Shown here in pieces: positions 38,969 through 61,408 of a DNA stretch of 61,408 bases. The notes under the pieces were generated by a model. It saw nothing but the letters and a program-made list of their open reading frames with translations. It did not search any database and had not been told where the DNA came from. A program made the position numbers and the translations under genes. Source of the stretch: a virus; IMG/VR virus record IMGVR_UViG_3300020392_000014, positions 1 to 61,408 of that record; one strand, written 5' to 3'. The stretch's first letter is position 1; each line of letters begins with the position of its first letter.

Positions 38969-41900
38969 TGAATAAATATAAAACACCATCAGGAGATGTT
39001 CTTACAGAAGAAGAATTAAGGTCAAGATACGGCGACCAATTTGATTCTTTGGTCGCAGACGGTGTATTGACTTTGGTAGAAGGAGAAGAGGCTGAAAAAA
39101 AAAATCCAGTCGTTACCTCAGGTTCAGATTCGGAGCAGGAAAATACGGTTTCCACTACAAATCTAAACAATACTCCTGGGTTTTCGGATTCTTCCGATCC
39201 CATAGAAATAAATGAAGATGTAAACTTTGATATAAGTCTTCCAAAAAATCAACAAACTCTAGTTGAAAATAAAAGTAATTTAGATATATTAAACTCCATT
39301 GGATTTTTTGACGATAACAAACCTGAGATGGTTGTTTTGGATGAAAAAAATCAAACCAAAGAAAAATCATATCAAATTAAAGACCCAATTACAGGAGAAT
39401 TTAATTTAAAAAAAGAGTCGGAAATACCTGAGCCTGTATTGAAAGCTATAAAACTGCATGAAAAAGCTAATCCAAAAGTTGTAGATACTGAAGAGGTTAT
39501 AATTACCGAAGAAGATTACACTAATCCTGATAAAGTTGACTCAAAAATTTTATCTCAAAATAATATAGATGAAGAAGATTATTTAAAGTGGGAGAAAAAA
39601 AATATTAGACCTGAAGGTTCTGTTTATAAATTTTTAAAAACTCTTTTACCTAGTGATGAAGGTAATCAATATGAAATGGAAAAAAGGCAGTATGAAAAAT
39701 TACAGTCTTATAATGCTTCAAAACTAAATAATATTACTAGTGCACTTTCCGCAAATGAAGCAGCACAAAAATTAACAACTAATCCAAATGATATTAGAAG
39801 ATTAAGATTAGAGGCGGTAAATTTAAAAAAAGAATTTATGGAAACTTACTCCACAATGGAGTCAGCGATAAATTTATTTCCGGTTTATAAAGAAGAAGAA
39901 ATAGATTCTGATTTGAGAAAAAGAAAAGAACTTTATCAAGCAGTTAAATCAGGAGGATTAAGGGAGTTTACGGGGGGAGGTTTAGAATTATTGAAAACAG
40001 GAGCTACAGCTTTGACTTCTTTTGCTGGTAATTTTATAGGCGGGATACCTGGAGCTGTCGATCAAAGACTAACAAAATTTGGATACAATAAAAAAGGTCT
40101 ACTTGCCGGTTTAAGTGATATGTTTGTAGACTCTAGTGAAGCTATTGAAACAGAAATAGGTGAAACACAAAGACCAGCTTTTTTAGAAGGCAAACCTGTA
40201 ACTTATAATTCACAAGAATTTATAGTTGATGCAAACGGGACAGTGTACGATGCAAAATCCAATATTCGAATGGATGGAATATTACCTGACAGTGAGATAA
40301 AAACAATAATAAACAGATCAAAAGATGTCCCCAATAGCACTATTAATTGGACAGGAGGTTCAGTATTGACAGGCGGTGTAAATACTTTGATGAATTTATT
40401 TGCTCTTATACGAACTGGAGGTAAGGTTAATAAATCAACTGGCCTTGAAAAGATTTTTAAACCTGGTACTGCAGGAAAAGTTGGAATGGGAGTAGCATCT
40501 TTTACAAGCGGGGTAGTGAGTAATGTTGAAGACATACGAAGTCAGTTGGTAGCAACTGGTATGGGTGAGAATGAAGCAATGGAAATAGCTGTTGATGCTG
40601 GCCAAGCTATAGCAACTTTAGATGGTATATTTTCTGGTATAGCTGGTAGTAACGAACAGTTATTAATTGGTTTCCAAGGTATTAAAGATCAAGTAAAAAA
40701 TTTAGCAATTAAAGAAGGAAAAAAGTTTACAAAAAAACAACTAGTGGACAAAGGAATTGCTTTAGGTAAAGAAAACTTTAAAGAATTATTTGTTGAAGAA
40801 TTGCCTGTTTATTTTACAGAAAAAGCAATTAATAATTTAGTTAATCAAAAGGTTGGGAATACAGTATTAGACCAGAAAATTACAGCAGCTGGTGTTTTAG
40901 AAACTGCAGTAATGACTATAGGGGCTACATCTACACTAGGTTCTAAAAATTTATTAACAGGTAACAAAAGAAAAGACTTAGTAAGAACACTAGCTTCTGA
41001 TGTTCAAGATTTGCAAAAAACATTAAATGTTTTAGTAACAGAAGGTTCTTTAAACAAAGAACAAGCTGCGAATGCTTATACAGAGATTTATAACATGAAA
41101 GCAGCTGAACTAAAAACTAAAGGGACTGTTAAAATGTCTAAAAATGTTGAAGAAGCCTCGGACTTGTTAACGCAAAGGCAAAATCTTATAGAACAAAGAG
41201 AAGGTTTAGAAGGGCCATTAAAAGAAGAGTTAGATAAAAGAATTGAGGATGTAGATGCTCAAATAAAAAAATTACAACAAAGAGATATTACAGAAGCACA
41301 GTCTATTATAGATAAACAAAAAGATAGTAAAGATAAAGTCGAAGTTACAAGAGAGGAAGCTGTTCAGGCTTTCAAGGCTGAAAATGAATTTAGGGTAAAA
41401 GCTGGATTACCTGTTCTTATAGAATCAGAACAAAATATTACAAAAAAACAAAATGAATTAATTAAAGATAAACAAGATGCCATTCAAAAGTCAAGCACAG
41501 AGAAAGTGGATGTACAAGAACAATCCACAGATGGCCAAACGGTGGGAGAAAGAGACACCGAAGGGGCCGTTACCCAACAGGGTAAAAAAGAAACCGAAGA
41601 TGTCCTTGTTGAAAGCAAGGAGGCGGAAGTAACACCAGTTAGGGAAAAAATTGATCAACCTTTTCAGGTACCCAATTCAAGAATTGATGTAACATTAAAT
41701 CAAGATGGTACGGCAAAAGTGTACAAAAGGGGTACAAATCAAACTGTTAAATATGTTCCACAAAAAGCTAGTAAATATATTTTAACAGATGTAATTGATG
41801 TAAACGAAGGTAATCTAGCTACTATACCTGAAGGCACACCGGAAGGAGATGTTTTTATAGAAATTGCTGACACATCAAATAATGTTTATGAAGTTGTGCA

Positions 41901-44900
41901 AGCTATAAAACAAGTAGAGGATAGTATGGTAGATGCGGAAATGGAAACTGCTGAAGGGGGTATATTTAATATATTACAATTAAAGTTCACTCCTGAAAGC
42001 TGGAAGCGTATAACTGGTGTATCGCCAAAAGAATCTGGCGTTTCTAATTTTTGGATAAGTAAAAAGGATGGAGTAAGTATAGAGGACGGATGGGTTGATG
42101 TGGCTCCTGAATTAAGTATAGATATGGTTATTGATTTTATCGAATCTAATCCTACTTTAGCGGATGTAAAAAATTTACAAAAAGGAGGCCTTAGTCAAGA
42201 TTTAGTGGCTTTAAAACAAAGATTTAAGGAGTTAACAGGTTTAAGTGCAACAAAGTTTAATCTAAATACAGTTTTATCTATCGACCCAAATAGAGAGCCG
42301 TTGAGAGTAACAGAAACAAGAAATGTAGAGCAATTAACTAGAGAGTCTCTTGACCCTAATGTAGATGACTTTGGGAAAAAGAAAGGGCCATCAGCAGAAA
42401 AAATTACAGGTAAAAAAATAAAGAAAGTCAAAGTAGATGAACAGTCTGCATTGAAAGACCAGATAAGATTAGAAGCTAAAGCAGCAAGAGATGCAAAAAA
42501 AGATCAAACCAAAAGACGAAGAGGTTTAGTAAAATCTATAAAAGGTTTGTTGAAAGAAGGTAATATTACAAACAAAAAAGCTTTATCATTGATAAAAAAA
42601 GTTTCTAATGTAAACTTAAATAACGCAAAAAAAGTGCAAGACGTTATTGATTTTATAGAGAAATCTTTAAACGATTCTTCTTATTCTGCAAAACTTTCAA
42701 AAGCTAATGCTTTGATTAAGTCTATCAAAAAAAATTTAAAAGGTAAAGAAGCTGCAATGTCTGATTCAGCAAAACAGTTTGTGTTAATAGACCCTAATAC
42801 AGTAGAGAATATAGACACATATCTAAATTTTGCAGAAAACATTAAAAATGGTTTAATGAAAACCAAAAGGACAGGTAAGGGGGTAAAAATATCAAAACCT
42901 TTTGATGTCAAAAAAGTTGACGCATATAGTAAAAAACAAATTGACTTACAAAACAAAAGAAATTATGAGTTGGCTAAAGAATCGTTTGAGTTACTTACGG
43001 GATTAGAAGCTGGAGAGTTAACGTTAGACGAAATGAAAGAAGCTTTGTATGATATAGAAGGTGAAGCTAATGATCCTGGCAAAAAATCAGAGCTGTTAGC
43101 AAAAAACAAAGAAGCGGTTATAGATAAGGCTATTAAAAATGCATTTCAAAATACTAAAATAAATATTAAGGGTAGTATAGAAGCTGGAGATGTAGAGTTA
43201 AATAAAGAAAAAAAAGAATTAATTCGTGATTTTTTAAACATGGACTTAAAATTACTCAGCACGGCTCAAAAGATGGCTGCCTTAGACTCCATAATTAATT
43301 TTGAAATAAATGAATCGACAGGCGGCATGGAGTCTATACTTAGGCAATATGTTGGGAATAAAAACATGATTAAGATGAATAATGAAAACATCAAATCATC
43401 TTTAAAAAGCACATGGCTAGGAAGGATGTGGAATAAACATTTATCGACATTGCCAAATGTTTTTGAATTAATGTTTGCTTCACAGGAAAAAGCAAGAAAG
43501 ATAACTAAAGCACTTGGTCTTGATGGGGTAATAGATGGTTATGCTAAAGCAGAGAAAGAAGCAAATGATGTAGAGCAAGATTATGCTAATGTTTTTGCAA
43601 AAAAGAAAATGAAAAACGGTATTTACTTCGATGAGATGAATGACCTAGAAAGAGGGGTGTTGGCAGAGGTTAGAAGATTTACACCAGGTACGGAAGTAGA
43701 ACAGCAAAACGAGTTTGATGTAAGTAAAAAATTAATAGATCAAACAATAAAAAGACTAGAAGCTTCTAAAGATTCTAACGATAAAGCAAAAGCTGAAAAG
43801 CTAAGGGCAGTATATGATAATATATTAAAAGATTCAAACAATATAAGTGAAGTAGAATCTAAAGTTGACCCTGTAAATTTAGAAGGAGTAGAATATGTTA
43901 CTCAAATTTGGGCAAACAAATATCAAGATTTAGCTGACACTTCTTTAAATGTCTATAATAGAAATTTAGGAAAAGACATTAACTATACTCCTAGAAGCGT
44001 ACAAACATTAACTCAAGAGGACAAAACACCTGACATCACTGAACCTGTATTTAATCCAGAAAATCTTTCTAAAAGCCCTTATGATAAGGAGACTGGAGTT
44101 TTGAAGGTAGCCACAAAGCCACCTACTTTACCAGAGGGCAAAGTTTTAAATTTAGGCTTTGATAGACAAAATTTAAGCAATTATAAAGCAGCTTTAACAG
44201 ATATATATACCGCTCCTTCTATACAGCAAATTAAAGGTGCGCAACAATCAGAATATTTTAAAGAAGTATTTCCTAATGAAAACGCAAGAGATATAGTAAA
44301 TCTGAGAATAAAAAATTATGTAGACTCAAAAAGGGGAAAAAGGTTTTTTAACGCAAAAGATAAAATAGCTCTTGACGCTATGAACAAATTAGCCACTATG
44401 GGTGTAGTAAAAGCTTTAGGTGGTGTAACTCAACCGTTTAAACAAATTGTACCTATATTCAACACTAGTATTAACGCTGGCCCCATCAATACAATTAAAG
44501 GTGTGGAACTATATCTTTTTAATCCTGATGCTAGAAAAGCAATAGATAATTCTGGGTTAGCCATAGCTAATAGAGGTATAAAAGCTCAATCTGATTTGGA
44601 GTCTGTTGATAGCAGAATAGATAATACTACTCGAACTAAAGGTGGTAAATTATTAAAAGCGTATGATAACTTAAATAAAACAATTTTGCAAAAAACTTTA
44701 GTTGATCCTGATGTAGGCACTGCTAAAGCATCATTTTTAGCATACTATATTCAAGCGATGGACAAAAAGGGTGTGAGTTTAAATGAAATAGACTGGACGC
44801 AACCCTTAGAGAAAGACGAATCTCGTTTTGCTCAACAACAGGTTGATAGACAACAGAACACTTCTGACCAAGATTTGCAAGGAGATTTGTTTACCAGTCA

Positions 44901-45756
44901 GGCATTAACAAAACAAACTATAAGAAAAGTATTATTTCCTTTTGCAAATTTTTTATTGAATCAAAAAACTAGAATGTATTCTGATATTAACACATTGTTT
45001 AGAAACCCCACTGCTTTACCTGGGGACAAGACCGCCGCACTTAAATCTTTAGCTGGTTTAGGTGTAGAAAATGCTACATTCAATGCTATAGGTTTAGGTA
45101 TATCTGCCATGCTAGCTAACACAGTATCATCTTTGATTGGTATGGATGAAGAGGAAGAGGGAACCTTTTCTGAAAAAATAGAAAAAATAAGAGAAGCAGA
45201 AAGGAAAAGACTACAAAATCAAATAATTGGTAGAGGCGGCAATCTTATAGCTGATATAGTTTCACCGCTTCCTTTTTTAAACGATGAGGTTTTATCAGTA
45301 ACAAATTCCTTAGTCGGTTTATTTCAAGATGGAGGTAAAGATGATTTTAAGTTTTTTGTAAATACCAACAGAGGGTTGAGTGAACAGTTAGGGGTATTAG
45401 GAATAGGTGGAGAAAAATTACAAAGACTAACAGAGATGATTAGAATAGCTCAGACGGGTGAGGTAACAACTGAGTATGGCGGTAAAAAAAGTACCAAAAA
45501 ACTGACAAAAGATGCTCAAAATAAAATTCAAAATGTAGCAGTGGTTTATGCTTTATTTATAGCAGGTGGAATACCATTCTCTGAAGTGGGGTATATGTCT
45601 GAAAAAGCACTTAGAGACTTGAAAAAAAGAAAACAACCAGGGCCTAAAAAATTTAAAGAGGAGAAAAAAACTTCATTGTCTTTAAAAGGAAAAGGAAAAT
45701 TAGAAAGCGGTGCTTTAAATAAAAAAAATAATAAATTACAAAAAGGTAGATTGTGA
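38968..45756 (+). CDS. Giant internal virion protein, 2262 aa
   Basis: The largest gene of the window. The N-terminal 300 residues are acidic and probably disordered. Hydrophobic, glycine-rich segments follow at about 345-365 and 465-490. A charged linker near 850-890 (EQSTDGQTVGERDTEGAVTQ) has higher GC codons than its surroundings. Long basic helical regions occupy about 1150-1500. The last 500 residues contain RKVLFPFANFLLNQKTRMYS and a hydrophobic NATFNAIGLGISAMLANTVS. This resembles the very large ejection or 'large polyvalent' proteins that enter the cell with the DNA. No transglycosylase motif was identified with confidence. Confidence 0.6.
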   Translation: MNKYKTPSGDVLTEEELRSRYGDQFDSLVADGVLTLVEGEEAEKKNPVVTSGSDSEQENTVSTTNLNNTPGFSDSSDPIEINEDVNFDISLPKNQQTLVENKSNLDILNSIGFFDDNKPEMVVLDEKNQTKEKSYQIKDPITGEFNLKKESEIPEPVLKAIKLHEKANPKVVDTEEVIITEEDYTNPDKVDSKILSQNNIDEEDYLKWEKKNIRPEGSVYKFLKTLLPSDEGNQYEMEKRQYEKLQSYNASKLNNITSALSANEAAQKLTTNPNDIRRLRLEAVNLKKEFMETYSTMESAINLFPVYKEEEIDSDLRKRKELYQAVKSGGLREFTGGGLELLKTGATALTSFAGNFIGGIPGAVDQRLTKFGYNKKGLLAGLSDMFVDSSEAIETEIGETQRPAFLEGKPVTYNSQEFIVDANGTVYDAKSNIRMDGILPDSEIKTIINRSKDVPNSTINWTGGSVLTGGVNTLMNLFALIRTGGKVNKSTGLEKIFKPGTAGKVGMGVASFTSGVVSNVEDIRSQLVATGMGENEAMEIAVDAGQAIATLDGIFSGIAGSNEQLLIGFQGIKDQVKNLAIKEGKKFTKKQLVDKGIALGKENFKELFVEELPVYFTEKAINNLVNQKVGNTVLDQKITAAGVLETAVMTIGATSTLGSKNLLTGNKRKDLVRTLASDVQDLQKTLNVLVTEGSLNKEQAANAYTEIYNMKAAELKTKGTVKMSKNVEEASDLLTQRQNLIEQREGLEGPLKEELDKRIEDVDAQIKKLQQRDITEAQSIIDKQKDSKDKVEVTREEAVQAFKAENEFRVKAGLPVLIESEQNITKKQNELIKDKQDAIQKSSTEKVDVQEQSTDGQTVGERDTEGAVTQQGKKETEDVLVESKEAEVTPVREKIDQPFQVPNSRIDVTLNQDGTAKVYKRGTNQTVKYVPQKASKYILTDVIDVNEGNLATIPEGTPEGDVFIEIADTSNNVYEVVQAIKQVEDSMVDAEMETAEGGIFNILQLKFTPESWKRITGVSPKESGVSNFWISKKDGVSIEDGWVDVAPELSIDMVIDFIESNPTLADVKNLQKGGLSQDLVALKQRFKELTGLSATKFNLNTVLSIDPNREPLRVTETRNVEQLTRESLDPNVDDFGKKKGPSAEKITGKKIKKVKVDEQSALKDQIRLEAKAARDAKKDQTKRRRGLVKSIKGLLKEGNITNKKALSLIKKVSNVNLNNAKKVQDVIDFIEKSLNDSSYSAKLSKANALIKSIKKNLKGKEAAMSDSAKQFVLIDPNTVENIDTYLNFAENIKNGLMKTKRTGKGVKISKPFDVKKVDAYSKKQIDLQNKRNYELAKESFELLTGLEAGELTLDEMKEALYDIEGEANDPGKKSELLAKNKEAVIDKAIKNAFQNTKINIKGSIEAGDVELNKEKKELIRDFLNMDLKLLSTAQKMAALDSIINFEINESTGGMESILRQYVGNKNMIKMNNENIKSSLKSTWLGRMWNKHLSTLPNVFELMFASQEKARKITKALGLDGVIDGYAKAEKEANDVEQDYANVFAKKKMKNGIYFDEMNDLERGVLAEVRRFTPGTEVEQQNEFDVSKKLIDQTIKRLEASKDSNDKAKAEKLRAVYDNILKDSNNISEVESKVDPVNLEGVEYVTQIWANKYQDLADTSLNVYNRNLGKDINYTPRSVQTLTQEDKTPDITEPVFNPENLSKSPYDKETGVLKVATKPPTLPEGKVLNLGFDRQNLSNYKAALTDIYTAPSIQQIKGAQQSEYFKEVFPNENARDIVNLRIKNYVDSKRGKRFFNAKDKIALDAMNKLATMGVVKALGGVTQPFKQIVPIFNTSINAGPINTIKGVELYLFNPDARKAIDNSGLAIANRGIKAQSDLESVDSRIDNTTRTKGGKLLKAYDNLNKTILQKTLVDPDVGTAKASFLAYYIQAMDKKGVSLNEIDWTQPLEKDESRFAQQQVDRQQNTSDQDLQGDLFTSQALTKQTIRKVLFPFANFLLNQKTRMYSDINTLFRNPTALPGDKTAALKSLAGLGVENATFNAIGLGISAMLANTVSSLIGMDEEEEGTFSEKIEKIREAERKRLQNQIIGRGGNLIADIVSPLPFLNDEVLSVTNSLVGLFQDGGKDDFKFFVNTNRGLSEQLGVLGIGGEKLQRLTEMIRIAQTGEVTTEYGGKKSTKKLTKDAQNKIQNVAVVYALFIAGGIPFSEVGYMSEKALRDLKKRKQPGPKKFKEEKKTSLSLKGKGKLESGALNKKNNKLQKGRL

Positions 45757-47513: not shown

Positions 47514-47850
47514 CTTTGTAATTAGTAATTTGATTTGATTTTATGTAACAGTTGATAAGCATTAAATCTAAATATTCATCCATGGAAATTAAAGTAATGT
47601 CAGTGAAAGTTAAATGCCTATGTTTTACTTTTAAAATTTCAACCGCAAATGTTACGACCTCATCTTTAACATTAACTAAACCTCCGTATACATAAGTTGT
47701 TAACTCGTTTGGATTCAAGTCTCTTACATTATCTTCAAGAAATAAAGCAATGGCCAAAGCCGTATCATGGTCAAAAGATTTGAGCTCATCCATAAACTCA
47801 TCTTCAACATCATAACCTTTATCCCTTATATATCTCTGTTTTAAACCCAT
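47476..47850 (-). CDS. Protein of unknown function, 124 aa
   Basis: Acidic alpha/beta protein starting MGLKQRYIRDKGYDVEDEFM. It overlaps the VRR-NUC gene by 32 bases and probably belongs to the same replication/recombination operon. No domain recognised. Confidence 0.55.
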   Translation of the reverse strand: MGLKQRYIRDKGYDVEDEFMDELKSFDHDTALAIALFLEDNVRDLNPNELTTYVYGGLVNVKDEVVTFAVEILKVKHRHLTFTDITLISMDEYLDLMLINCYIKSNQITNYKDELSRVFKPKLF

Positions 47851-48058
47851 AATTTTTCAACTCCTCCAATCTAAATTCTTGCAGAGGAGTGAGCTTTCCA
47901 TTTGTTTTTTTTATTTCTGAAAACAGTACATCTGCATTTTTTGGGATTGCTATTAAGTCAGGTATGCCATTCTTATTTGTTTTTATAAGCTTCAAAACAT
48001 AATATCCTTCATTCTCTAACTGATCTATTCTTTTTTTCTGTATCTGTTGCTCAGTCAT
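47819..48058 (-). CDS. VRR-NUC domain nuclease
   Basis: 79 residues, the size of a minimal stand-alone VRR-NUC protein. PD-(D/E)XK-type residues: GIPDLIAIP (Asp34) and FSEIKK (Glu48-x-Lys50), followed by NGKLTPLQEFRLEELKNYGF with Gln60. Such phage nucleases cut structured DNA such as flaps or Holliday junctions and are commonly encoded beside SNF2-like helicases, as here. Probable role in replication intermediates or recombination. Confidence 0.88.
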   Translation of the reverse strand: MTEQQIQKKRIDQLENEGYYVLKLIKTNKNGIPDLIAIPKNADVLFSEIKKTNGKLTPLQEFRLEELKNYGFKTEIYKG

Positions 48059-48059
48059 A

Positions 48060-49289
48060 TTACAAACTTAATAAATCCTTTTTGAAATGATTTAGAGTAT
48101 AATCTTTCTTTTTAATAACAGTCTTATATATGTCATGCTCAATTCCTTTTTCCGAAAATATCCAATATAGTTTATTATATTTTCTATCTTTAGTAGTCAT
48201 CCTATCTCTTGATTGCCAATAGCTTGTAGCACTAAAATCTATATTGTAATAAACAAGTGCAGAAGCTAGTTTTAAACTTATACCCTCTCTTCCAGAAACT
48301 ATTTGTAAAGCAATAGATTTAGTAGTTGTGTTAAATTCTTGTATTTCTGTACATATTTCATCCTTATAAATACTTTTTATAGCATTTAATTCCTCTTTAA
48401 ATTTATAAAAAATAGCTATTTTTTTATTTCGAAAAGTAAAATAAATAAACTCAGCCTTTTTATAATCTAATACCATAGAACCCCCCTCCTCAAATTTTAC
48501 AGTACCAGAATAAAGTTGATGAAGTTTTGACATAAGTTTGACAGATGTATCAGCTAGTATAGTATTGTCGTTGCCTTGAACAACTAAATTCTTTTTTAAT
48601 TTTTCTATTATCATATATGTTATCTTATTCATCTTAACAGTTAAAACTTCCTCGTCGGTTGTAACTTTAAATCCCGCTTCTTTTTGTGTCCATGAAATAG
48701 TATATGGCTTCATCAAGTCTAGTATGGATTGTAGACCATGGCTGTAATCTTTTATCGGCATAGAACTAATGTATTTTAATTTTATGTTTGCGTGTACTTT
48801 AGCAAACGCATAAAAATTTCTAAACGAATGAAATGGATTATTGGGTATACCATAAACTTGGTGATACATTTGCACATAAGACTCTGGTGTAGGAGTACCA
48901 GATAAAAGTATCACAAAAGGATTGTTAAGCTTGATTAATTCTTTAACCTGTTTAGCTCTGCGACTAGGTTTAGGGTATGCACCCATACTATGAGCCTCAT
49001 CACAAATAATCATATCATAATTGTTTTTCTCGATCTTGTGTAAAGACTCGTAATTAATAATAGTGATGGAAAAAGAGGGGTTTAATTTATTATAATCGTC
49101 TTGTATACTATATATAGCCTTTTTTTTTGTAATGAACAAGAGGTTTTGAACAGGCAGAAGGCCACTCATACTCAAACTCGTTAACGTCTTGCCTGTCCTA
49201 ACCTCCATGGCAAGATACAAAAACTTGTATTTTTTAAGTATAGGTATGGCTGTGTTAACTATCTCCTGCTGATAATCTCTTAAGTTCAT
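48060..49289 (-). CDS. SNF2-like superfamily 2 helicase
   Basis: 409 residues. Motif I EVRTGKT at 29-35, motif II CDEAHS at 96-101, motif III LLSGTPTP, and in the second RecA-like domain IALQIVSGREGISL (motif V) and SYWQSRDRMTTKDR (motif VI). It is shorter than cellular SNF2 proteins, as usual for phage versions. It lies between a VRR-NUC nuclease and the primase-helicase gene, overlapping the latter by one base. A likely role is remodelling replication forks or recombination structures. Confidence 0.85.
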   Translation of the reverse strand: MNLRDYQQEIVNTAIPILKKYKFLYLAMEVRTGKTLTSLSMSGLLPVQNLLFITKKKAIYSIQDDYNKLNPSFSITIINYESLHKIEKNNYDMIICDEAHSMGAYPKPSRRAKQVKELIKLNNPFVILLSGTPTPESYVQMYHQVYGIPNNPFHSFRNFYAFAKVHANIKLKYISSMPIKDYSHGLQSILDLMKPYTISWTQKEAGFKVTTDEEVLTVKMNKITYMIIEKLKKNLVVQGNDNTILADTSVKLMSKLHQLYSGTVKFEEGGSMVLDYKKAEFIYFTFRNKKIAIFYKFKEELNAIKSIYKDEICTEIQEFNTTTKSIALQIVSGREGISLKLASALVYYNIDFSATSYWQSRDRMTTKDRKYNKLYWIFSEKGIEHDIYKTVIKKKDYTLNHFKKDLLSL

Positions 49290-51694
49290 TAAAAATCTAT
49301 TTCTTGTATTTTTTCGTAGTGATGTTTATTTCTAAATATAATCCATCTAGCAGTATCTCTACCCTCCTCTGGCTCGCAGTCATGTTTATATAAATTATAA
49401 GCATGTAGCCATTTGTAAAATCTAATTCTTGATACAGTCATTTTTGCTTTAGGTGCAAAGTCTGGGTTATCATCAATAAAATCCATATACAAATCATGCT
49501 TGTATATTTTTTTATTTACTTTAAGTTTTTCGTTTTCATTTAAACCATCTACAAGACCGCACCACTCAATAAATTCATGGCATGTTTCTGCCGCTAGTTG
49601 TCTAATCTTAAGGTTTACAAATTCACTTTTTATTAAACCTTTATCAAGATAAAGCTGTAAACACTCTATCATAAAGTTGTCAAATTGACACCATTCCTCA
49701 TCATTCCATTCCCCGAACATAAGTTTACCAAACTCTCTTAGTGGTGTTCTGTCTCTCGTATAATATCTTGATAATTCTAATTCCCATTTTCGCCTTTCAA
49801 AAGATGATCCTTTGCCTTTGATAGCATAGTTAGTGGTAATACTAACCTTTGGGGATTTACTAAATGGTATTTTAATTGCATCTTTATTTTTTTTCTCAAG
49901 TGTCAAACCCTCTGTTACAACAGAAAACAACCTTTCAAAATCGAAATACTTTTTTACATCATCAAAGCAAAGTATCTGTGTATCAGCAGATACAAGTTGA
50001 TATGCAAATGATTTTTCAAAATTAAAACTTTTACCATCTATTACGACAAGTTTTTTCATTTGAGCCATTCCATTCATAAATAACCCTTTACCTGTACCTC
50101 CCTCTGGGTTATCAGAAATTACTTCATCATTTAAAATTACTGCGGGCGAATAAGATAAATTTTTCCAACCATGCAAAAGATATCCAATAGTTGATTGCAT
50201 AGATAATATTCTGCTTTCATTTTTACCGCAAATATTTTCTATAAACTTTCTAAAATCACACTGTGTGTTTTCACATTTTATAAAAGCTCTATCAATTACA
50301 TGGTCGCTCCAGACATATCCGCCTAAATCGAGATAATCTATTGAAACAAGTTCATCTTTAGTCACTTTAACTGCACAATTTTTGTAGTATAAGTATGCTG
50401 TATTTTTGTTGTCCTCAATAAAGTAAACATCTATTGATGAAAGAAGTGTTAAAAATTCCTCTCTAAAGTATCTAGTATTTTCTGCAAAGTAATTGTATAC
50501 ACTTACATCATTAATGTCTAACAGATAGTTAAGTATAAAATCTTTAATTTCTTTTTCACTCGTATGGTCAATTAGGTTGTTTGTAACACGAACGAAGACA
50601 TAGTTCTTGCTACCCTGCGGGTTAAATTTATAAAAGCCGTGTTCCTCTAAAAAACTTTTAAAAAAAAAATGTACGATTTTGACTACACCCTTATCGCTTT
50701 TTGTCCAGAACTTGTGATGCGATTGCTCCTCCTCAATTCTGTTTATAACATTATCAATAATAACAGGGTCAACATCATCCTCTAACTCCTCTTTGACTTG
50801 TTTTTTTGTGCCCCCTTGCTTCAACCTAAATCTAATTTGGTTTACTTTATCCTCATCCTCATAATACTTGGTACCAAAGTTTTGTTTTTGTGCATAAGCT
50901 GATTGAATTGTTCGCTTGATTTCTAATTGTTTAAAATCTTTTGTAGCATAATTATTCAATACAAATTCCGCTAAAGTTTGATTAATACCAAAGTCATTAA
51001 AGGCTGAAGCTAGGATAAACACATTTTGATTTCTCTGTCCCTCTATCATAGGGTACTTTTTTTTCCACCATTTAGTTAAAATATCTACAATCTTATTCTC
51101 ATCAGTAATAGGTATTGTAGGTAAATCAACATTTTTATTTATTTCATTAAATTCCTCCTCCTCTATACGATCCCACACACTTGAAGTTTTGTTTATGTAT
51201 ATGAGAGGGTCATACGACTCATAACATACCCGACTTAAGTTCTTAGATGTCTTGTCGAAGTAATCTGAATTAAAAAATGATTGCAAACTTAAAAAGTATG
51301 ACTTGTGGTTTTCTGGTTCCGATGGTATTTTTACCAGAGCTTTCAAACCTTTACCACTTGGAGATATAAAGACAGAGAAAATGTATTTATTTTTTGATAA
51401 TCTTTCTTTTTCTTGAAGCAAATCTCTGTTACTCTTGTAGCCGTCAAAGTCTAAACATATTAGTCCAGAGTGTTCCTCAAGAGAATTGTCGCTTCTTTTT
51501 GTAAACTTACCGCTAAAACACACCGCAGGTAAACCTTGTTTGTAGGTGTTTCGCTGAGTTTTATCTTTTTCTGCTCTTATTTTTTTTACTAAATCTTTAC
51601 TAGATCCTTCTCTGATTCTGTTCAATATAACATGAACATCCCTATAAAAAGGCTGACTTGTAGTCTTAATATCTTTGAATATAGTAATTATCAC
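49289..51694 (-). CDS. Primase-helicase fusion (BT4734-type primase, SF3-like helicase)
   Basis: 801 residues. The N-terminal domain (about 1-170) matches the VirE-N/BT4734 primase-like family: LICLDFDG (79-85), FISPSGKGLKALVK (109-122) and LSRVCYESYDP (153-163). A middle helical region (about 205-275) resembles a PriCT connector. The C-terminal ATPase has Walker A GGTGKG near residue 528, Walker B ILCFDDV, and the sensor region ITTNYAIKGKGSSFERRKWE. It should unwind DNA and make primers. With no polymerase gene in view it may be the main phage-specific replisome component. Confidence 0.85.
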   Translation of the reverse strand: MIITIFKDIKTTSQPFYRDVHVILNRIREGSSKDLVKKIRAEKDKTQRNTYKQGLPAVCFSGKFTKRSDNSLEEHSGLICLDFDGYKSNRDLLQEKERLSKNKYIFSVFISPSGKGLKALVKIPSEPENHKSYFLSLQSFFNSDYFDKTSKNLSRVCYESYDPLIYINKTSSVWDRIEEEEFNEINKNVDLPTIPITDENKIVDILTKWWKKKYPMIEGQRNQNVFILASAFNDFGINQTLAEFVLNNYATKDFKQLEIKRTIQSAYAQKQNFGTKYYEDEDKVNQIRFRLKQGGTKKQVKEELEDDVDPVIIDNVINRIEEEQSHHKFWTKSDKGVVKIVHFFFKSFLEEHGFYKFNPQGSKNYVFVRVTNNLIDHTSEKEIKDFILNYLLDINDVSVYNYFAENTRYFREEFLTLLSSIDVYFIEDNKNTAYLYYKNCAVKVTKDELVSIDYLDLGGYVWSDHVIDRAFIKCENTQCDFRKFIENICGKNESRILSMQSTIGYLLHGWKNLSYSPAVILNDEVISDNPEGGTGKGLFMNGMAQMKKLVVIDGKSFNFEKSFAYQLVSADTQILCFDDVKKYFDFERLFSVVTEGLTLEKKNKDAIKIPFSKSPKVSITTNYAIKGKGSSFERRKWELELSRYYTRDRTPLREFGKLMFGEWNDEEWCQFDNFMIECLQLYLDKGLIKSEFVNLKIRQLAAETCHEFIEWCGLVDGLNENEKLKVNKKIYKHDLYMDFIDDNPDFAPKAKMTVSRIRFYKWLHAYNLYKHDCEPEEGRDTARWIIFRNKHHYEKIQEIDF

Positions 51695-51800: not shown

Positions 51801-52055
51801 TTAAAACGGGTCTATTTCTGTTTCTGTTTCAACAGGTTTTGTTTCAACTTTTTCTGGAGCGACATAAGGTATTTTGACATCTCCTGATTTATAATTATTA
51901 CCCGCTTGGGATACATTATTCCATATGCTCACTTCAAATTCCTCGCCTTTGAACATACCCCAACCTGTAAAATCAGGTTGTTTACCTTCTTTGTCTGTGT
52001 TTGGAAATAATATTATTTTACCTTCTTTATATTCCCTCGGTTTTTTTTCTGCCAT
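51801..52055 (-). CDS. Small SSB-like protein with acidic C-terminal tip
   Basis: 84 residues. A beta-rich core (GKIILFPNTDKEGKQPDFTG followed by WGMFKGEEFEVSIWNN) is followed by a flexible acidic tail ending ETEIDPF. A terminal D-x-P-F-like tip is the signature by which SSB recruits partner proteins. It sits with exonuclease, annealing protein and primase-helicase genes. An ssDNA-binding role is inferred; the core resembles short DUF736-type proteins, and an OB fold is not proven by eye. Confidence 0.55.
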   Translation of the reverse strand: MAEKKPREYKEGKIILFPNTDKEGKQPDFTGWGMFKGEEFEVSIWNNVSQAGNNYKSGDVKIPYVAPEKVETKPVETETEIDPF

Positions 52056-52212
52056 TTTTTTTAACTTTTATATTTTGTTCCAAAACTTCTATTGTTTGAT
52101 AAATTATTAATTCTTTATCCTCTCGTGTTTCACAAATATTTGGAACTTCTATCTGTAAAACATTTTCTTTTGTATCAATACCTAATGTTTTATAAAACCA
52201 TTTCTGTAACAT
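52027..52212 (-). CDS. Small protein of unknown function, 61 aa
   Basis: Start chosen at the ATG at 52212 (MLQKWFYKTLGIDTKENVLQ), which limits overlap with the exonuclease gene to 23 bases; longer in-frame starts lie inside that gene. Basic C-terminus (KVKKNGRKKTEGI). It overlaps the SSB-like gene by 29 bases. No family recognised. Confidence 0.5.
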   Translation of the reverse strand: MLQKWFYKTLGIDTKENVLQIEVPNICETREDKELIIYQTIEVLEQNIKVKKNGRKKTEGI

Positions 52213-52927
52213 GCTGAGATATGTCATGTGTTTTGTTTTTGCTGAAATATTTATTATAAACTTGTGTTGCATTAAAAACATTTTGTTTACCATATGCAAG
52301 AAACTCATCAGAGCATGGAGCTTTTAAAACTTGTAAAGTATTTTTATCTATCACTACAAACAACATGGGTTTTTTGAATTGCAATTCATATACATATGCT
52401 TGTGAATTATAACAAAATGCTCTTGCACTTGATCTAAAATTTTTTGAATTACCTGTGGTTTTTAAATCAACGACAAAATCCTCGTGCAAAATATCACATT
52501 TGGATTTCCACATATTACCCTCTATTTCCATGATAGCGGGTACTTCGTATTTGTTATTAGTATCTTGTATAATTTCTGAAATTTCCAACACACTTAATAA
52601 TTTATCTTTACACCTCAGCATAGTATCTCTTTCATGTAGTAACATAACATCATCTTTGTCTAAATTATTTTCTATCAAATAATCCTTAAATTTCTTTGTG
52701 CTTCTTGTCGAGCTGTCAAAGATAGGTATTTTAATAGGTTTGTCTGGCTCTAAAATAATTTGATGAAAATATCTACCCATTAATATTTCTGGACTTTTCT
52801 TTTCTTGTTTAAATTTTTCAGGTTGATAAAGAAGTGTCGAAACATCTGATGCTGATAAATATTCTTTACCAAAATCACCATAATACTTAGTATCATCTTT
52901 TAATTTTTCTAATAAATCAACTTGCAT
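52190..52927 (-). CDS. PD-(D/E)XK exonuclease, RecB/RecE-like
   Basis: 245 residues. Motifs in order: LSASDVSTLL near 25, GRYFHQIILEP (51-61), the core KSKCDILHEDFVVDLKTTGN with Asp145 and Asp154-x-Lys156, and the late QAYVYELQF (176-184). This is the layout of phage RecB-like 5'-3' exonucleases (PDDEXK_1 / RecE C-terminal type). It is adjacent to an annealing protein, forming a two-component recombination system. The exonuclease makes ssDNA tails for annealing. Confidence 0.85.
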   Translation of the reverse strand: MQVDLLEKLKDDTKYYGDFGKEYLSASDVSTLLYQPEKFKQEKKSPEILMGRYFHQIILEPDKPIKIPIFDSSTRSTKKFKDYLIENNLDKDDVMLLHERDTMLRCKDKLLSVLEISEIIQDTNNKYEVPAIMEIEGNMWKSKCDILHEDFVVDLKTTGNSKNFRSSARAFCYNSQAYVYELQFKKPMLFVVIDKNTLQVLKAPCSDEFLAYGKQNVFNATQVYNKYFSKNKTHDISQHVTEMVL

Positions 52928-53441
52928 GTGTTTTTAATTGAGATTCAACTTCTTTTGTTATGGTATATTTAGTTTCTAATTGTTGAATTATCCATGACAT
53001 ACCTTTTTGCTTATTGTTTACTACAAAATTTAAAACTTTGTCCCAATTATCATCTCCAATTTTTAAAGTGTATGCACCTTTTGGTTTACTATTTTGATTA
53101 GCAATGGCATTTTGTACTTCCTCTGCAGAAGCTACTGAAGTGTCAAGACCTATGCCCATATTTGCAAGAGCTCTCCCCCATGCAGAAGTTTCGCAGTTCT
53201 CTACATAACTTGTTTTATTAATAAAAGTTGATCCTTTCACTTCCTCTGCTATACCTGTGGCAATTTCTCTATCTTGCTCATCTCGTATCGTAGCTTTAAT
53301 TAGAATTGTATCAGGGGTTTTGTCTACAACCTCTGTGGTCAATGAATATTTTGGGTAATTGCTTCGAAAGTATTTTAATCTTTCGTTTACTTCAACATAA
53401 TCTTTACCCTTTATGTTGATAGTTTTTAACTTTTTGTTCAT
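52917..53441 (-). CDS. Erf-like single-strand annealing protein
   Basis: 174 residues starting MNKKLKTINIKGKDYVEVNE. The segment ENCETSAWGRALANMGIGLD (81-100) is the signature of Erf/Rad52-like phage annealing proteins, followed by SVASAEEVQNAIANQ. The protein forms rings that anneal complementary ssDNA exposed by the adjacent exonuclease, whose gene it overlaps by 11 bases. The C-terminal 60 residues are a small helical domain. Confidence 0.8.
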   Translation of the reverse strand: MNKKLKTINIKGKDYVEVNERLKYFRSNYPKYSLTTEVVDKTPDTILIKATIRDEQDREIATGIAEEVKGSTFINKTSYVENCETSAWGRALANMGIGLDTSVASAEEVQNAIANQNSKPKGAYTLKIGDDNWDKVLNFVVNNKQKGMSWIIQQLETKYTITKEVESQLKTHAS

Positions 53442-53847
53442 ACTCGTTTAGATTTAATTTAATATTTAATTTATTTTTTCTTGCTGTATATTTTTGTAAA
53501 ATTCTTTCTCTCCTATTTTTTAAATTTTGGATATGCTTATCGTTTTTTCTGGTGTTGATTTCTGTTTTTATTCTGTTTTTAATTAAGTTTAATTTAAACT
53601 CATAATTATTTAGCAGAACAAATTCAGTACCCGCACTCCAGCCATACTTGTAAAAATAATCATACTCTTCCTTTGTGCATTCCATAAAATAATCTCCACC
53701 TTTTCCCATATTAAGTATTTCAATTTTTTCTGGAAACTTCAAAATCTTTGCCCCATTGTGCATAACTGATTCCATTTTTTGTGTCTGTGTGTAAATAGAA
53801 TTTGGCACTCTTTTAGCTTGGTCAAAAAGATGAAAAAGATTATACAT
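53404..53847 (-). CDS. Protein of unknown function, 147 aa
   Basis: Alpha/beta N-terminal part (KILKFPEKIEILNMGKGGDY) followed by an aromatic patch and a basic helical C-terminus (KNRRERILQKYTARKNKLNI). It overlaps the annealing-protein gene by 38 bases and the DnaA-like gene by 8. The basic helix suggests nucleic-acid contact; no family recognised. Confidence 0.55.
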   Translation of the reverse strand: MYNLFHLFDQAKRVPNSIYTQTQKMESVMHNGAKILKFPEKIEILNMGKGGDYFMECTKEEYDYFYKYGWSAGTEFVLLNNYEFKLNLIKNRIKTEINTRKNDKHIQNLKNRRERILQKYTARKNKLNIKLNLNEYEQKVKNYQHKG

Positions 53848-54133
53848 TTTGAACTTCCTCTATCATTTTTTTATAGTCAGGATCTGTATCTATTAGATTT
53901 TTGGCTTGTTTGTAACCATGAATAATGGTTGAATGTTGAACATCATAGCCATATTCCTTTAAAAATTTTCTTATATACGAAAGCCGAATAGGTCTTTCCA
54001 TACAAGCATAGTAAAGCATTTGTCTTGCATCTACTACATCTCGTTTCTTTGAGTTTTCAAACATCTCGTTCAAACTAAGATGAAATTGTTTTGCGATTGC
54101 ATTTGTGTATTTGTCGAATATTTCTTTTTTCAT
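53840..54133 (-). CDS. Stand-alone DnaA domain IV-like protein
   Basis: 97 residues. The core matches the DNA-binding domain IV of DnaA: VVDARQMLYYACME (33-46, the A-R-x-x helix), IRKFLKEYGYDVQHSTIIHG (54-73, equivalent to the G-x-R-D-H-S-T-V-x-H signature) and a following lysine helix. No AAA+ or domain I is present. It should recognise DnaA-box-like DNA. In a genome without its own polymerase it may mark the phage origin or divert host initiation factors. It overlaps a small membrane protein gene (TGATG). Confidence 0.8.
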   Translation of the reverse strand: MKKEIFDKYTNAIAKQFHLSLNEMFENSKKRDVVDARQMLYYACMERPIRLSYIRKFLKEYGYDVQHSTIIHGYKQAKNLIDTDPDYKKMIEEVQNV

Positions 54134-54270
54134 TGGATTAAAGTATAAATGTAATAAGCTAATATAATAATTGTAGCAAGAAAACCCACCAATCTAAGCA
54201 GTTTAAATGTTTCATGCTCACTTTCAGGTGTTCTGCCCTGTCTACTTCTATATTGTCTATATCTTTTCAT
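54130..54270 (-). CDS. Single-span membrane protein, 46 aa
   Basis: Basic N-terminus (MKRYRQYRSRQGRTPESEHE) followed by one hydrophobic span at about residues 25-44 (LLRLVGFLATIIILAYYIYT). Its stop overlaps the DnaA-like start, suggesting coupled translation. Function unknown. Confidence 0.5.
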   Translation of the reverse strand: MKRYRQYRSRQGRTPESEHETFKLLRLVGFLATIIILAYYIYTLIQ

Positions 54271-54280
54271 AATATTTTAA

Positions 54281-54398
54281 AAGTGAGGTGGACAGGACTG
54301 GAATGTTAGAGATGCACATTGGACTTACACTCTTTTATCTGTTTATCCTGTCTTTCTGGTCTTACCAATTTAGTGCCTTCCAAACTTAGACCTCACTT
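54281..54398. other. Noncoding element bounded by inverted repeat AAGTGAGGT
   Basis: Perfect 9-bp inverted repeats aagtgaggt (54281-54289) and acctcactt (54390-54398) enclose an inner pair gacagga/tcctgtc. On the minus strand it also holds a near-direct repeat of D-loop-like sequence (ctaagtttggaaggca and ctaaattggtaagacca). No T-loop is present, so it is not called a tRNA. It may be a structured RNA or a tRNA remnant. Confidence 0.45.
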
Positions 54399-54406
54399 AT
54401 TTTAAA

Positions 54407-54495
54407 AGGTGGCTGATTATCCTTGCGAATCTCACTTATAGTGTGTTTCTTTTATTATCATTTAGGGCATGTTTATAGGACTAACCCCACCACCT
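54407..54495. other. Second inverted-repeat-bounded noncoding element
   Basis: AGGTGG at 54407-54412 and CCACCT at 54490-54495 can close an 89-nt structure (7 bp with a G-T pair on the minus strand), directly beside the previous element. Internal gggg/cccc segments could pair. Tandem placement of two tRNA-sized hairpin-bounded units is notable. The flank at 54500-54562 holds C- and G-runs and no gene. Confidence 0.35.
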
Positions 54496-54562
54496 GTTTG
54501 CCAAACCCCCCAGACCAAAAACAAAATGAAGAGAGGGGGGGTGTGGACTTGAAAACAACTAA

Positions 54563-54643
54563 CTAAATAAACATGTGGACATTATCCTCATAGTAAAAAT
54601 CCTCATGTTCGGGATCTGAATAACATATAATCACTTTATTCAT
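54563..54643 (-). CDS. Possible leaderless micro-ORF, 26 aa
   Basis: Encodes MNKVIICYSDPEHEDFYYED and a short tail. A -7 box ends five bases upstream of the ATG, so the transcript would begin at or just before the start codon. Small size makes it uncertain. Confidence 0.3.
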   Translation of the reverse strand: MNKVIICYSDPEHEDFYYEDNVHMFI

Positions 54644-54647
54644 ATTG

Positions 54648-54655
54648 CAAATTTA
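54648..54655 (-). promoter_or_regulatory. Bacteroidota -7 box on minus strand (TAAATTTG)
   Basis: TAAATTTG on the minus strand within the stretch attgcaaattta, which recurs at 56591-56602. It could drive transcription of the element and gene block downstream. No -33 TTTG seen. Confidence 0.4.
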
Positions 54656-54678
54656 GTATAAAAAACCGAAAAAAAAAA

Positions 54679-57735: not shown

Positions 57736-58668
57736 TTAAAATGTTAATGTTAATTGAATTGATTTATTTATTTTATTTATCATTTGTTTTATGCCTCGTA
57801 TCATTTTAGAGTGAATAGCACAAACCTCCCTCTTAATAATCTCAGTTTGTTGCTCATCTATTTCATATGTTAGCACACTTCTCTGTGTGGTCGCACATGC
57901 TTTGGCAGTCGAGCCAGACCCTGCGAACATATCCAAAACGATTTCAAAGGGCTTAGTTGATGCTTTCACAAGCTCAATGAGTAGCTCGGTCGGTTTGGCT
58001 GTTTGGTACTTAGAATCGGCTTTAAATTGGTACAGGGGCTGAAGTTCAAAATCTAAATCAGCCCTTTTGTTACCACTTTTAGAAAATGCAAAGATATGCT
58101 CTTGTAATTGATGACCACAAAAAGCATAAGGTTTGCCATTTTTGTAAAGTTTTTGAAATTTAATCGACTGATGACATTCTTTTAACCCAGACAAAGTGAA
58201 TGCCTTTTTATATTCTGCAAGTGCTTTAATATTTGTTTTACTTGCTGAAAACATAAAGAAAATAGGGGTGTCATTTGTCTTTGTTAATTTAACAACATCT
58301 CGCATAAAAATTGTAAATTCTTGACTGCTCATTAATTGATATTTTGTAAGGTTTCTATTACCCCCCTTTGCCCCTGGGATTATGTAAGGGGGGTCAAGAA
58401 AAATCATATCAAATTTTGCTTGTTCTTGCACAAGTTTTTTAATCTCGTGCTTTGCATTACCTGACTGAATTATTGAGGCAGTCTCGCCCTGTTTAGTTTT
58501 AAGAGTGTAAACCCCTTTGGCTATTCTTTCGAGTTCTCCAGACTTAGCACCCTGTCCCAATATTCGCCGAATAGTGGGATTGGGTAGCTTAGTAATGGCT
58601 TCAATTTCGCTAATACTCGCCTGAATACGACCCTTTAAAACTTCGTTTACTATGTCCTTTTGTTTCAT
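57736..58668 (-). CDS. DNA adenine/cytosine-N4 methyltransferase with N-terminal wHTH
   Basis: 310 residues from the ATG at 58668, chosen to avoid overlap with the upstream gene (an ATG 10 codons earlier exists). Residues 1-58 resemble a winged helix (ITKLPNPTIRRILGQGAKSG ... GVYTL). The catalytic motif IV DPPY is at 92-95 and the S-adenosylmethionine motif I FAGSGST at 248-254, in the IV-before-I order of beta-type amino-methyltransferases. No restriction partner is adjacent, so it is probably an orphan enzyme protecting phage DNA or regulating early genes. Confidence 0.87.
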   Translation of the reverse strand: MKQKDIVNEVLKGRIQASISEIEAITKLPNPTIRRILGQGAKSGELERIAKGVYTLKTKQGETASIIQSGNAKHEIKKLVQEQAKFDMIFLDPPYIIPGAKGGNRNLTKYQLMSSQEFTIFMRDVVKLTKTNDTPIFFMFSASKTNIKALAEYKKAFTLSGLKECHQSIKFQKLYKNGKPYAFCGHQLQEHIFAFSKSGNKRADLDFELQPLYQFKADSKYQTAKPTELLIELVKASTKPFEIVLDMFAGSGSTAKACATTQRSVLTYEIDEQQTEIIKREVCAIHSKMIRGIKQMINKINKSIQLTLTF

Positions 58669-58672
58669 AGTT

Positions 58673-58987
58673 TTATTTTTTATAGTTATAGTTATCAATG
58701 TCCCAGACCTTGCCAGAATTTACAAGCTCATCATAGATGCCCATGTAACAAACTTGAGCGAGGTTTTGGGGGTTGTCTAAGTGTGAAAAATCGTACAAAT
58801 GCAAATCCTTAATGACCTTTATTTGGTCGCTGTAATACATTAAAGCATGGTCAATTTCTTGGTTTAGATAATCGTTAATACAATCATCAAACACCAATTC
58901 AAAATGCTCTCTGTCTAGCGATTCAGTTTCTAATTGGTCATTAATCATATCAATAAAATCTGTTTCAAAGTCGTTAATATATCCCAT
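58673..58987 (-). CDS. Acidic protein of unknown function, 104 aa
   Basis: Begins MGYINDFETDFIDMINDQLE. Very acidic, helical, with YYSDQIKVIKDLHLYDF in the middle. It overlaps the next gene upstream by one base. Low pI and early position are compatible with a DNA-mimic anti-host protein, but this is speculation. Confidence 0.55.
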   Translation of the reverse strand: MGYINDFETDFIDMINDQLETESLDREHFELVFDDCINDYLNQEIDHALMYYSDQIKVIKDLHLYDFSHLDNPQNLAQVCYMGIYDELVNSGKVWDIDNYNYKK

Positions 58988-59400: not shown

Positions 59401-59520
59401 GTGGGTTGATAAAGGGGAAGGTCTCAAAGCGTGAGACATTTGGAACGCTAAACGAGAAACGAGAGAAGGGAAGGCACCCCCAGAGGGGCGACAGGGGGCG
59501 AGGCAGTCCAGACCCACAGC
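59401..59520. other. GC-rich structured island in intergenic region
   Basis: Part of a stretch (59251-59660) with no convincing gene. Contains hairpin GTCTCA-AAGCG-TGAGAC (59421-59437), an overlapping alternative agcgt/acgct pairing, and ACCCCC (59476-59481) able to pair with GGGG at 59485-59488 or GGGGG at 59494-59498. Its base composition contrasts sharply with the AT-rich surroundings. Candidate small RNA, origin or packaging/termination element; an 81-codon minus-strand frame across it looks spurious. Confidence 0.5.
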
Positions 59521-59663
59521 AAAAAGCCAAAAAATCTAAAAAAAACGACAGGATTTAGGATTTTGTGCAAAAAAAAAATCAGTTTCTGTGCAGGGGTGTG
59601 CTTGCGTAAAACATAGTATTACCCTAAACTTCTATATATCTGAATCTCAAAAAAATTTTTCAC

Positions 59664-59950: not shown

Positions 59951-59960
59951 ATACAAATAC

Positions 59961-60150
59961 GTCAATAGTCGTCGTAAGTTTGTCAACTAAAAACTAAACT
60001 CGTCGTATCATAACTAACTGATTATCAATATTATATATAATTTACGTCGATTTCGTCGACTTTTCTCGTGTATATAGAGGAGAAAGTAAAATATACATAT
60101 AAATATATTTGCAAGTATACAAGCCTTAAACTCGACGAGTCGTCGTATAG
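59961..60150 (+). promoter_or_regulatory. CGTCG-rich leader upstream of groEL
   Basis: Six CGTCG pentamers (59970, 60001, 60045, 60054, 60141, and inverted as CGACG at 60133) occur within 180 bp of otherwise AT-rich DNA. Three are in the longer form TCGTCGTA. An inverted repeat ACTCG-A-CGAGT spans 60130-60140. Two copies sit back to back as cgtcgatttcgtcgac (60045-60060). Probable binding sites for a regulator or replication protein; not a CIRCE element. Confidence 0.55.
60104..60111 (+). promoter_or_regulatory. Bacteroidota -7 box for groEL (TATATTTG)
   Basis: TATATTTG predicts transcription near 60118 and a leader of about 85 nt containing the CGACG/CGTCG inverted motif. A second weaker box, TATATTTA, lies at 60170-60177, closer to the ATG at 60202. 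Confidence 0.5.
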
Positions 60151-60201
60151 CTTATTGTTCAAAAAATTGTATATTTACTCAAATTAAATTTAATTAATTA
60201 C

Positions 60202-61408
60202 ATGAACAACAAAGGTTATATACCCAAAGACCTCACATTTGACCAGGAGGGTCGAGATAAACTTATATCCGGCATATCGTCCATATCCAAAGCTGTGAAG
60301 AGCACACTTGGCCCGAGAGGTCGCACTGTATTAATAGAATCATCAGACCATCTTCAGGGAATTACTGTAACAAAAGACGGAGTAACCGTAGCAAACTCTA
60401 TATATCTTGACGATCCAATAGAAAACCTAGCAATACAAATGATGAAGGATGCAGCTTCACGGACTGCAGCTTCGGCTGGTGATGGCACGACTACTGCAAT
60501 AGTATTAACTGAAGCGATTGTCAAATGCGGTCTCAAAGAATTAGAGTTTGAAGATGATTGTAACATAACAGAAATAATAAAACACATAAATAAAGAAATA
60601 CAAGTTATATTAGAAGTGTTGCATAAAAAATCAAAACCAGTAAATGATAACACATTGAACCATGTAGCTACGATATCAGCAAACAATGACAAAGAGATTG
60701 GTGATATAATTACAGAAGCCTACAATAAGGTTGGTAAAGATGGTGTGGTTACGGTTGAGAAAAGTATGAATCATGAAACGTATGCAGAAGTGACTAACGG
60801 TATTAAAATAGATAGAGGCTATACGTCTAATTTATTTTTAAACAACCAACGTAAGGATGAGTGCGTGCTTGAAGATGTTTCTGTTCTAGTTTGTGATCAG
60901 GAGATAAATAATATTTTGCAAATAGAAAATGTTCTCAAACCAATCATTCAACAAAACAAAAAACTTTTACTTATAGCTCCGTGTTCGCAAAACGTTATAA
61001 ACACACTAGCAGCAAATGTTGTGAGAAATGGTTTGAAGCTTTGCAATATAGTACCGCCATCGTTTGGTTACAAGACACACGAGCTTATGTCAGACATAGC
61101 GGTTGCTATAGGTGCAAAATTTTATTCAGAAAAAACTGGAGACGATTTAAGTCTGCTAAACATTACAGACCTTGGACATGTGGATAAAATAATTGTTGGA
61201 AAAGAAAGTTCAGTGCTAATTAAAAACGACCAGGTGAATGAAGATGTAACAAAAAGAATCGAAGAGCTGAAAGAACAAGCTGAAAACACAGTAAAAAAAC
61301 CAGACAAGGATTTTATAAACGAAAGGATAGCTAGCCTAGCCGGAGCTATTGGGTGTATATATGTAGGTGGTAATAGTGATGTTGAGCAAAAAGAAAAATA
61401 CGATAGAG
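60202..61408 (+). CDS. groEL: Phage GroEL chaperonin, 3'-partial
   Basis: 402 complete codons to the window edge out of about 540 expected. Conserved chaperonin motifs: TLGPRGRTVLI (35-45), TKDGVTVAN (57-65) and AGDGTTTAIVL (92-102), which hold the ATP site including the catalytic Asp of the GDGTTT loop. Apical-domain text such as FGYKTHELMSDIAVAIGAKF is also recognisable. Sequence is clearly divergent from host GroEL as I know it (for example SASRTAASAGDG-type wording and a shortened N-terminus). It should fold phage proteins such as capsid or fibre subunits. No groES lies directly upstream; a GroES-like gene is at 17419. Confidence 0.95.
   Translation, partial: MNNKGYIPKDLTFDQEGRDKLISGISSISKAVKSTLGPRGRTVLIESSDHLQGITVTKDGVTVANSIYLDDPIENLAIQMMKDAASRTAASAGDGTTTAIVLTEAIVKCGLKELEFEDDCNITEIIKHINKEIQVILEVLHKKSKPVNDNTLNHVATISANNDKEIGDIITEAYNKVGKDGVVTVEKSMNHETYAEVTNGIKIDRGYTSNLFLNNQRKDECVLEDVSVLVCDQEINNILQIENVLKPIIQQNKKLLLIAPCSQNVINTLAANVVRNGLKLCNIVPPSFGYKTHELMSDIAVAIGAKFYSEKTGDDLSLLNITDLGHVDKIIVGKESSVLIKNDQVNEDVTKRIEELKEQAENTVKKPDKDFINERIASLAGAIGCIYVGGNSDVEQKEKYDR

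Follow-up and report, generated by a model that had tools for sequence, protein, structure and literature searches.

Phage P4 combines a primase-helicase, the alpha protein, with an origin of short repeats, and iteron recognition is carried by the alpha protein itself. The phage studied here resembles P4 in having a primase-helicase and a candidate short-repeat origin. In E. coli DnaA, the bases of the DnaA box are contacted by R399, P423, D433, H434, T435 and H439 (PMC7561715). A DNA-binding unit of the domain IV type also occurs outside DnaA in GafA, which activates the Rhodobacter gene transfer agent and needs its DnaA-like N-terminal domain for promoter activation (PMC9638019). Stand-alone domain-IV-like proteins of phages include phrog_16091 (function unknown), the 'dnaA' product of MW202828 and the 'DnaA protein' of Cellulophaga phage phi19:3. 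Our literature search found no paper directly on stand-alone domain IV in phages, and none of the papers searched analyzed such phage proteins with regard to operon position, a second copy or an origin.

The DNA analyzed (the window) is a virus record 61,408 bases long; it lacks terminal repeats and is a fragment whose end falls inside groEL. One of its genes codes for a DnaA domain IV that stands alone, a protein that we call IVa. IVa is 25-40% identical to the three phage proteins mentioned above and heads a replication operon with the following genes:

53840 to 54133, minus strand: IVa, stand-alone DnaA domain IV protein of 97 amino acids, gene 1 of the operon (PF08299, AlphaFold and PDB fold matches)
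53404 to 53847, minus strand: p147, partner gene of 147 amino acids, its first 8 bases shared with the end of IVa
52917 to 53441, minus strand: conserved operon gene, probable single-strand annealing (ERF/Sak-like) protein (phrog_11717, function not annotated)
52190 to 52927, minus strand: exonuclease VIII-like protein (PDDEXK, DUF3799; profile matches)
51801 to 52055, minus strand: possible single-strand DNA-binding protein, a weak match (phrog_18154, E 1.6e-4)
49289 to 51694, minus strand: primase-helicase of 801 amino acids (BT4734-like N domain, PriCT-1, DUF5906; profile matches)
48060 to 49289, minus strand: SNF2/ResIII-type helicase of 409 amino acids (profile matches)
47819 to 48058, minus strand: VRR-Nuc nuclease (profile match)

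These genes follow IVa on the same strand in the order given, with an exonuclease after VRR-Nuc. Elsewhere, the window encodes an N6/N4 DNA methyltransferase (57736-58698, minus strand), the extra N-terminal part of which weakly matches an AbiEi-type regulator, and a 2262-residue protein (38968-45756, plus strand), probably an internal virion protein and of unusual length for a 61-kb phage.

The IVa reading frame starts with ATG, and residues 11-76 of its product matched PF08299 (Bac_DnaA_C) with an E-value of 3.9e-9 and 36.9 bits, against a curated cut-off of 31.5. The same family was matched by 72 of the 72 IVa relatives scanned (E up to 0.01), and a profile built from these relatives retrieved DnaA structures from the PDB (E 1.5e-5). 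The AlphaFold2 model consists of six helices (pLDDT 94.1, pTM 0.86). When this model was compared with the PDB by Foldseek, the top nine matches were DnaA domain IV structures and nothing else of weight was found; the comparison with 1j1v gave TM 0.77/0.79 and an rmsd of 1.9 Å. All 97 residues belong to domain IV, and both the AAA+ domain III and the helicase-contacting domain I are absent. IVa is a member of the DnaA domain IV family and not a DnaA initiator. Without these two domains it is unable to open DNA or to load the host helicase in the manner of DnaA. The preliminary description of this DNA had proposed a stand-alone domain IV with an A-R-x and HST-type core and without AAA+ domain, and these proposals were borne out: the core is present as A36 R37 Q38 and H67 S68 T69, and the model has the domain IV fold with its helix-turn-helix.

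The place of IVa at the head of the operon is strongly conserved. The gene was retained in 194 of 196 loci whose sequence extends 3.5 kb or more upstream of the primase, a count that was not de-duplicated and in which several loci share one contig. Operon order matched in the first relatives examined, 269 loci have p147 and IVa together on one strand, and the primase-helicase is 66-77% identical in relatives. For p147, AlphaFold predicted a helix, four strands and a long helical hairpin (pLDDT 94.5), and searches of Pfam, PHROG and the PDB, fold search included, gave no convincing match. The ERF-like reading of the annealing protein is presumed from its SAWGRALANMGIG motif. The neighborhood described earlier, with primase-helicase, SNF2/ResIII helicase, VRR-Nuc and an exonuclease VIII-like gene, was recovered, and its apparent lack of a polymerase also held. 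DNA polymerases of families A, B and C (DNA_pol_A, DNA_pol_B, DNA_pol3_alpha) were not found above the cut-off in the window or in ten relatives of 59-89 kb, which include the circular record MW202828; one sub-threshold match (G010) lies inside a very long frame and is probably noise.

The large virus group carrying IVa probably consists of Bacteroidota viruses. Relatives of the primase in genome assemblies fall mostly into Bacteroidota bins, with some bins named otherwise, and the promoters are of Bacteroidota style; together, these data suggest, without proving, a Bacteroidota host.

IVa is the first gene behind a non-coding stretch (54134-54678) that precedes the operon. Stable branched hairpins, several with a U run, were observed in this stretch (54276-54402 of the window, minus strand) and at matching places in relatives (L012:9420-9545, L014:2540-2650, L016:4375-4470, L018:9910-9990), with stability z-scores of -2.5 to -3.6; the value for L013 was not significant. 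An Rfam search of the stretch gave no match of value, and the hairpins may represent a leader, a terminator or a small RNA.

When IVa is compared with DnaA domain IV (1j1v, 3pvp, 8btg), the two share the fold (TM about 0.77), the helix-turn-helix, R407, usually H434 and a basic residue at the R399 place, with residues numbered on the E. coli domain IV sequence. In contrast to DnaA, IVa lacks domains I-III, and its recognition helix is preceded by roughly three additional residues. Among the 56 sequences compared, R407 is invariant, the R399 place is R or K in 56, H434 is kept in 50 and the T435 place is Ser in 47. R399, H434, T435 and H439 are kept or conservatively replaced in most IVa sequences, whereas P423 and D433 are lost. 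The D433 equivalent, Q in the IVa of the window, is hypervariable among relatives, with only one residue of the protein varying more (entropy 3.22 vs. a core mean of 1.17). Bacteroidota DnaA, by contrast, keeps the recognition residues K/R-[DN]-H-A-T-V. Variability at this place is expected if the target varies among phages while the fold stays constant.

The hypervariable D433 place, together with the overlap of the p147 gene with the end of IVa, would also suit a structural subunit without DNA specificity, which might serve with p147 as contact or DNA-bending part of a primase-helicase complex. However, retention of R407 and of a basic R399 place in every sequence is unexpected under such a role, and we consider it very improbable. 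A second alternative is that IVa blocks the host, either by occupying the DnaA boxes of oriC or by titrating DnaA partners, so that resources would be directed to the phage. IVa has the same fold as domain IV, a passive competitor is what one expects of a protein without AAA+ domain, and a phage without recognized polymerase should need host replication proteins. However, the changed base contacts (D433, P423, T435) reduce the likelihood that IVa simply competes with host DnaA for oriC, and the second domain-IV protein described below suits the part of a competitor better. Of the two functions suggested in the preliminary description, origin marking is the better candidate, and a block of the host by IVa appears improbable.

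This second protein, IVb, is encoded by 9 of the 10 relatives of 59-89 kb, and 9 of 11 records searched have two domain-IV proteins, which suggests that such DNA recognition matters to these phages. IVb comprises 126-221 amino acids, with domain IV near the start followed by a helical-looking tail. Its gene lies between VRR-Nuc and a 63-residue gene in 111 of the 153 loci spanning that place, as in these examples:

L012, 16904 to 17344: IVb
L043, 12986 to 13498: IVb
MW202828, 60107 to 60676: IVb (P0002)

The recognition helix of IVb is mostly N/D-H-A-T, like that of Bacteroidota DnaA, and in a tree IVa was split cleanly from IVb plus bacterial DnaA (support 0.996, with two bacterial sequences only). 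IVb also matches weakly phrog_30669, a 'replication initiation protein'. IVb is absent downstream of VRR-Nuc in the window and from the rest of its covered part. In L018, its gene is located about 18 kb beyond groEL, so that a window copy, if there is one, may lie past the window end.

The DnaA boxes predicted earlier did not materialize. We found TTATNCACA 3 times in the window against 5.28 expected and, with one mismatch, 93 times against 110.9 expected; there was neither enrichment nor a cluster. The GC-skew check proposed at that time was carried out and the sign flips near 57-58 kb, but gene direction switches there too, so that the flip is confounded and was discarded as origin evidence. 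A different kind of candidate origin was located before groEL:

59960 to 60160, no strand assigned: candidate iteron-type origin, TCGTCG at 59969, 60000, 60053, 60133 (minus) and 60140
60011 to 60033, plus strand: conserved element TAACTAACTGATTATCAATATTA, near the IHF consensus, within the iteron cluster
60202 to 61408, plus strand: phage groEL, truncated at the window end (Pfam Cpn60_TCP1, E 2.3e-30), marking the candidate origin

Five of the seven TCGTCG copies of the whole window lie within 177 bases before groEL, and this stretch ranks first of 1012 window stretches for a repeated 6-mer. The region is AT-rich (27% GC vs. 34%) and is located 5.9 kb from IVa, where the early genes and groEL diverge. 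Among 52 genomes, the median rank of the corresponding pre-groEL stretch for repeated 6-mers was in the top 2%; 32 genomes had it within the top 5% of their own stretches and 14 within the top 1%. Most of the 52 carry the consensus TAACTWAYTGATT near position -200 relative to groEL. In many genomes this element fits the IHF consensus; in the window, TAACTNNNTGATT occurs exactly once, inside the conserved element. The plan found in relatives consists of left iterons, the TAACTWAYTGATT element, one or two tandem iterons, AT-rich DNA, inverted iterons and the groEL promoter, with paired tandem iterons 8-9 bases apart. This architecture is common to about 50 relatives, among which the repeat sequence varies (ATGTTAAA, GTGTTGAT, ATGTCGAT, ATGACGAC, ATGACAAG, TATTCCAA and others). 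Clustered direct and inverted repeats, an AT-rich part and a conserved place, as in iteron origins, thus coincide at 59.96-60.16 kb, and we infer from these sequence features that this is a candidate origin, at which replication may start. The earlier suggestion that IVa marks the phage origin gains a candidate site at 59.97-60.15 kb, but the repeats are not DnaA boxes, and tests for their co-variation with IVa failed to establish any. The region is also a promoter region and could therefore be an operator.

Two further observations concern these surroundings. The groEL gene adjoins the candidate origin in the relatives seen, and MW202828 has a 10-kDa chaperonin gene beside groEL. At 59440-59660 the AT-rich genome has a GC-rich, G-run-rich stretch, found at the same place in L002, L011, L012, L018 and L019 and followed by a conserved AATAACCCTCAACC...TATCT block, mostly before a 66-residue gene.

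The evidence on direct reading of the iterons by IVa points both ways and on balance speaks against a simple yes. In leave-one-out prediction of iteron type, IVa was correct for 25 of 44 genomes as compared with 28, 29 and 28 for GroEL, p147 and the exonuclease, and the recognition helix alone, with 17 of 44, was the poorest IVa segment. L049 and L051 have nearly identical IVa recognition segments and different iterons. L350 and L351 lack IVa near the operon, yet they keep the iterons and the conserved element; both carry IVb. In favor of direct reading, the D433 equivalent is hypervariable, and the T435 place is Asn or Thr in TATTCCA-type genomes of two lineages and Ser in most others. Because iteron types were labeled by eye and the genomes share ancestry, such co-variation tests are weak in both directions. 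Two candidate readers were rejected. A column of p147 was conspicuous in the first 32 genomes and failed in new ones (Tyr in 6 of 11 TCG-type genomes). Residue 26 of IVa was the top co-variant in 47 genomes, but it is not a listed base contact and leave-one-out prediction gave IVa no advantage. Separately, the origin region of L350 and L351 mixes iteron types in one origin (ATGTCG, ATTCCAG, ATGACAG).

A rather unlikely scenario is a split initiator, in which IVa, often joined by IVb with its host-like residues, would act in trans with the primase-helicase on an iteron origin. The repeats would be rewritten between close relatives, perhaps barring co-infecting phages from sharing initiators.

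The main rival is a transcription factor that would act, perhaps jointly with p147, as a switch for early or late genes of the phage. GafA offers a direct precedent, since its DnaA-like domain activates promoters and has Ser at the T435 place; the small stand-alone DnaA-like gene of Hyphomicrobiales, which lies before gafA, parallels IVa as a separate gene before a partner gene (PMC9638019). IVa heads its operon behind a long non-coding stretch, and the iteron region doubles as the groEL promoter region. However, the conserved linkage of IVa is with replication and recombination genes and not with structural genes, and p147 matches no known transcription family. Among the families listed for IVa and p147, DUF6456, the GafA-type partner domain, was not matched. 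We regard regulation as the next most probable explanation, though less likely than not.

We tentatively favor the view that IVa is an accessory initiator which marks the origin for the phage primase-helicase, although we give this reading somewhat less than an even chance. It is backed by a protein that is domain IV fold alone, by the operon-head place in nearly all relatives and by the lack of a recognizable polymerase. The retained DNA-binding residues and a candidate origin nearby count in favor of origin marking, and the lack of canonical DnaA boxes counts against it. Direct iteron reading is disfavored by the failure of IVa to outperform other proteins as a predictor of iteron type and by the iterons of L350 and L351. 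In the favored scheme, IVa would be made early together with p147 and would bind somewhere within the origin of the phage itself. The most likely place is the region before groEL, where its target could be either the iterons or the TAACTWAYTGATT element. By bending or marking this site, it would allow the SF3-type phage primase-helicase to assemble there, and the host polymerase would perform DNA synthesis. IVa would thus supply the DNA-recognition half of DnaA, and the motor would come from another protein.

If this is true, a large phage group has captured that half of the universal bacterial initiator which reads DNA and has uncoupled it from its motor. The set of about 50 genomes in which origins are paired with proteins would then form a natural data set for the co-change of initiator and origin. 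If IVa is a regulator instead, it would show domain IV as a reusable DNA-binding module, as in GafA. Under either reading, the annotation 'DnaA' on small phage proteins should not imply an initiator.
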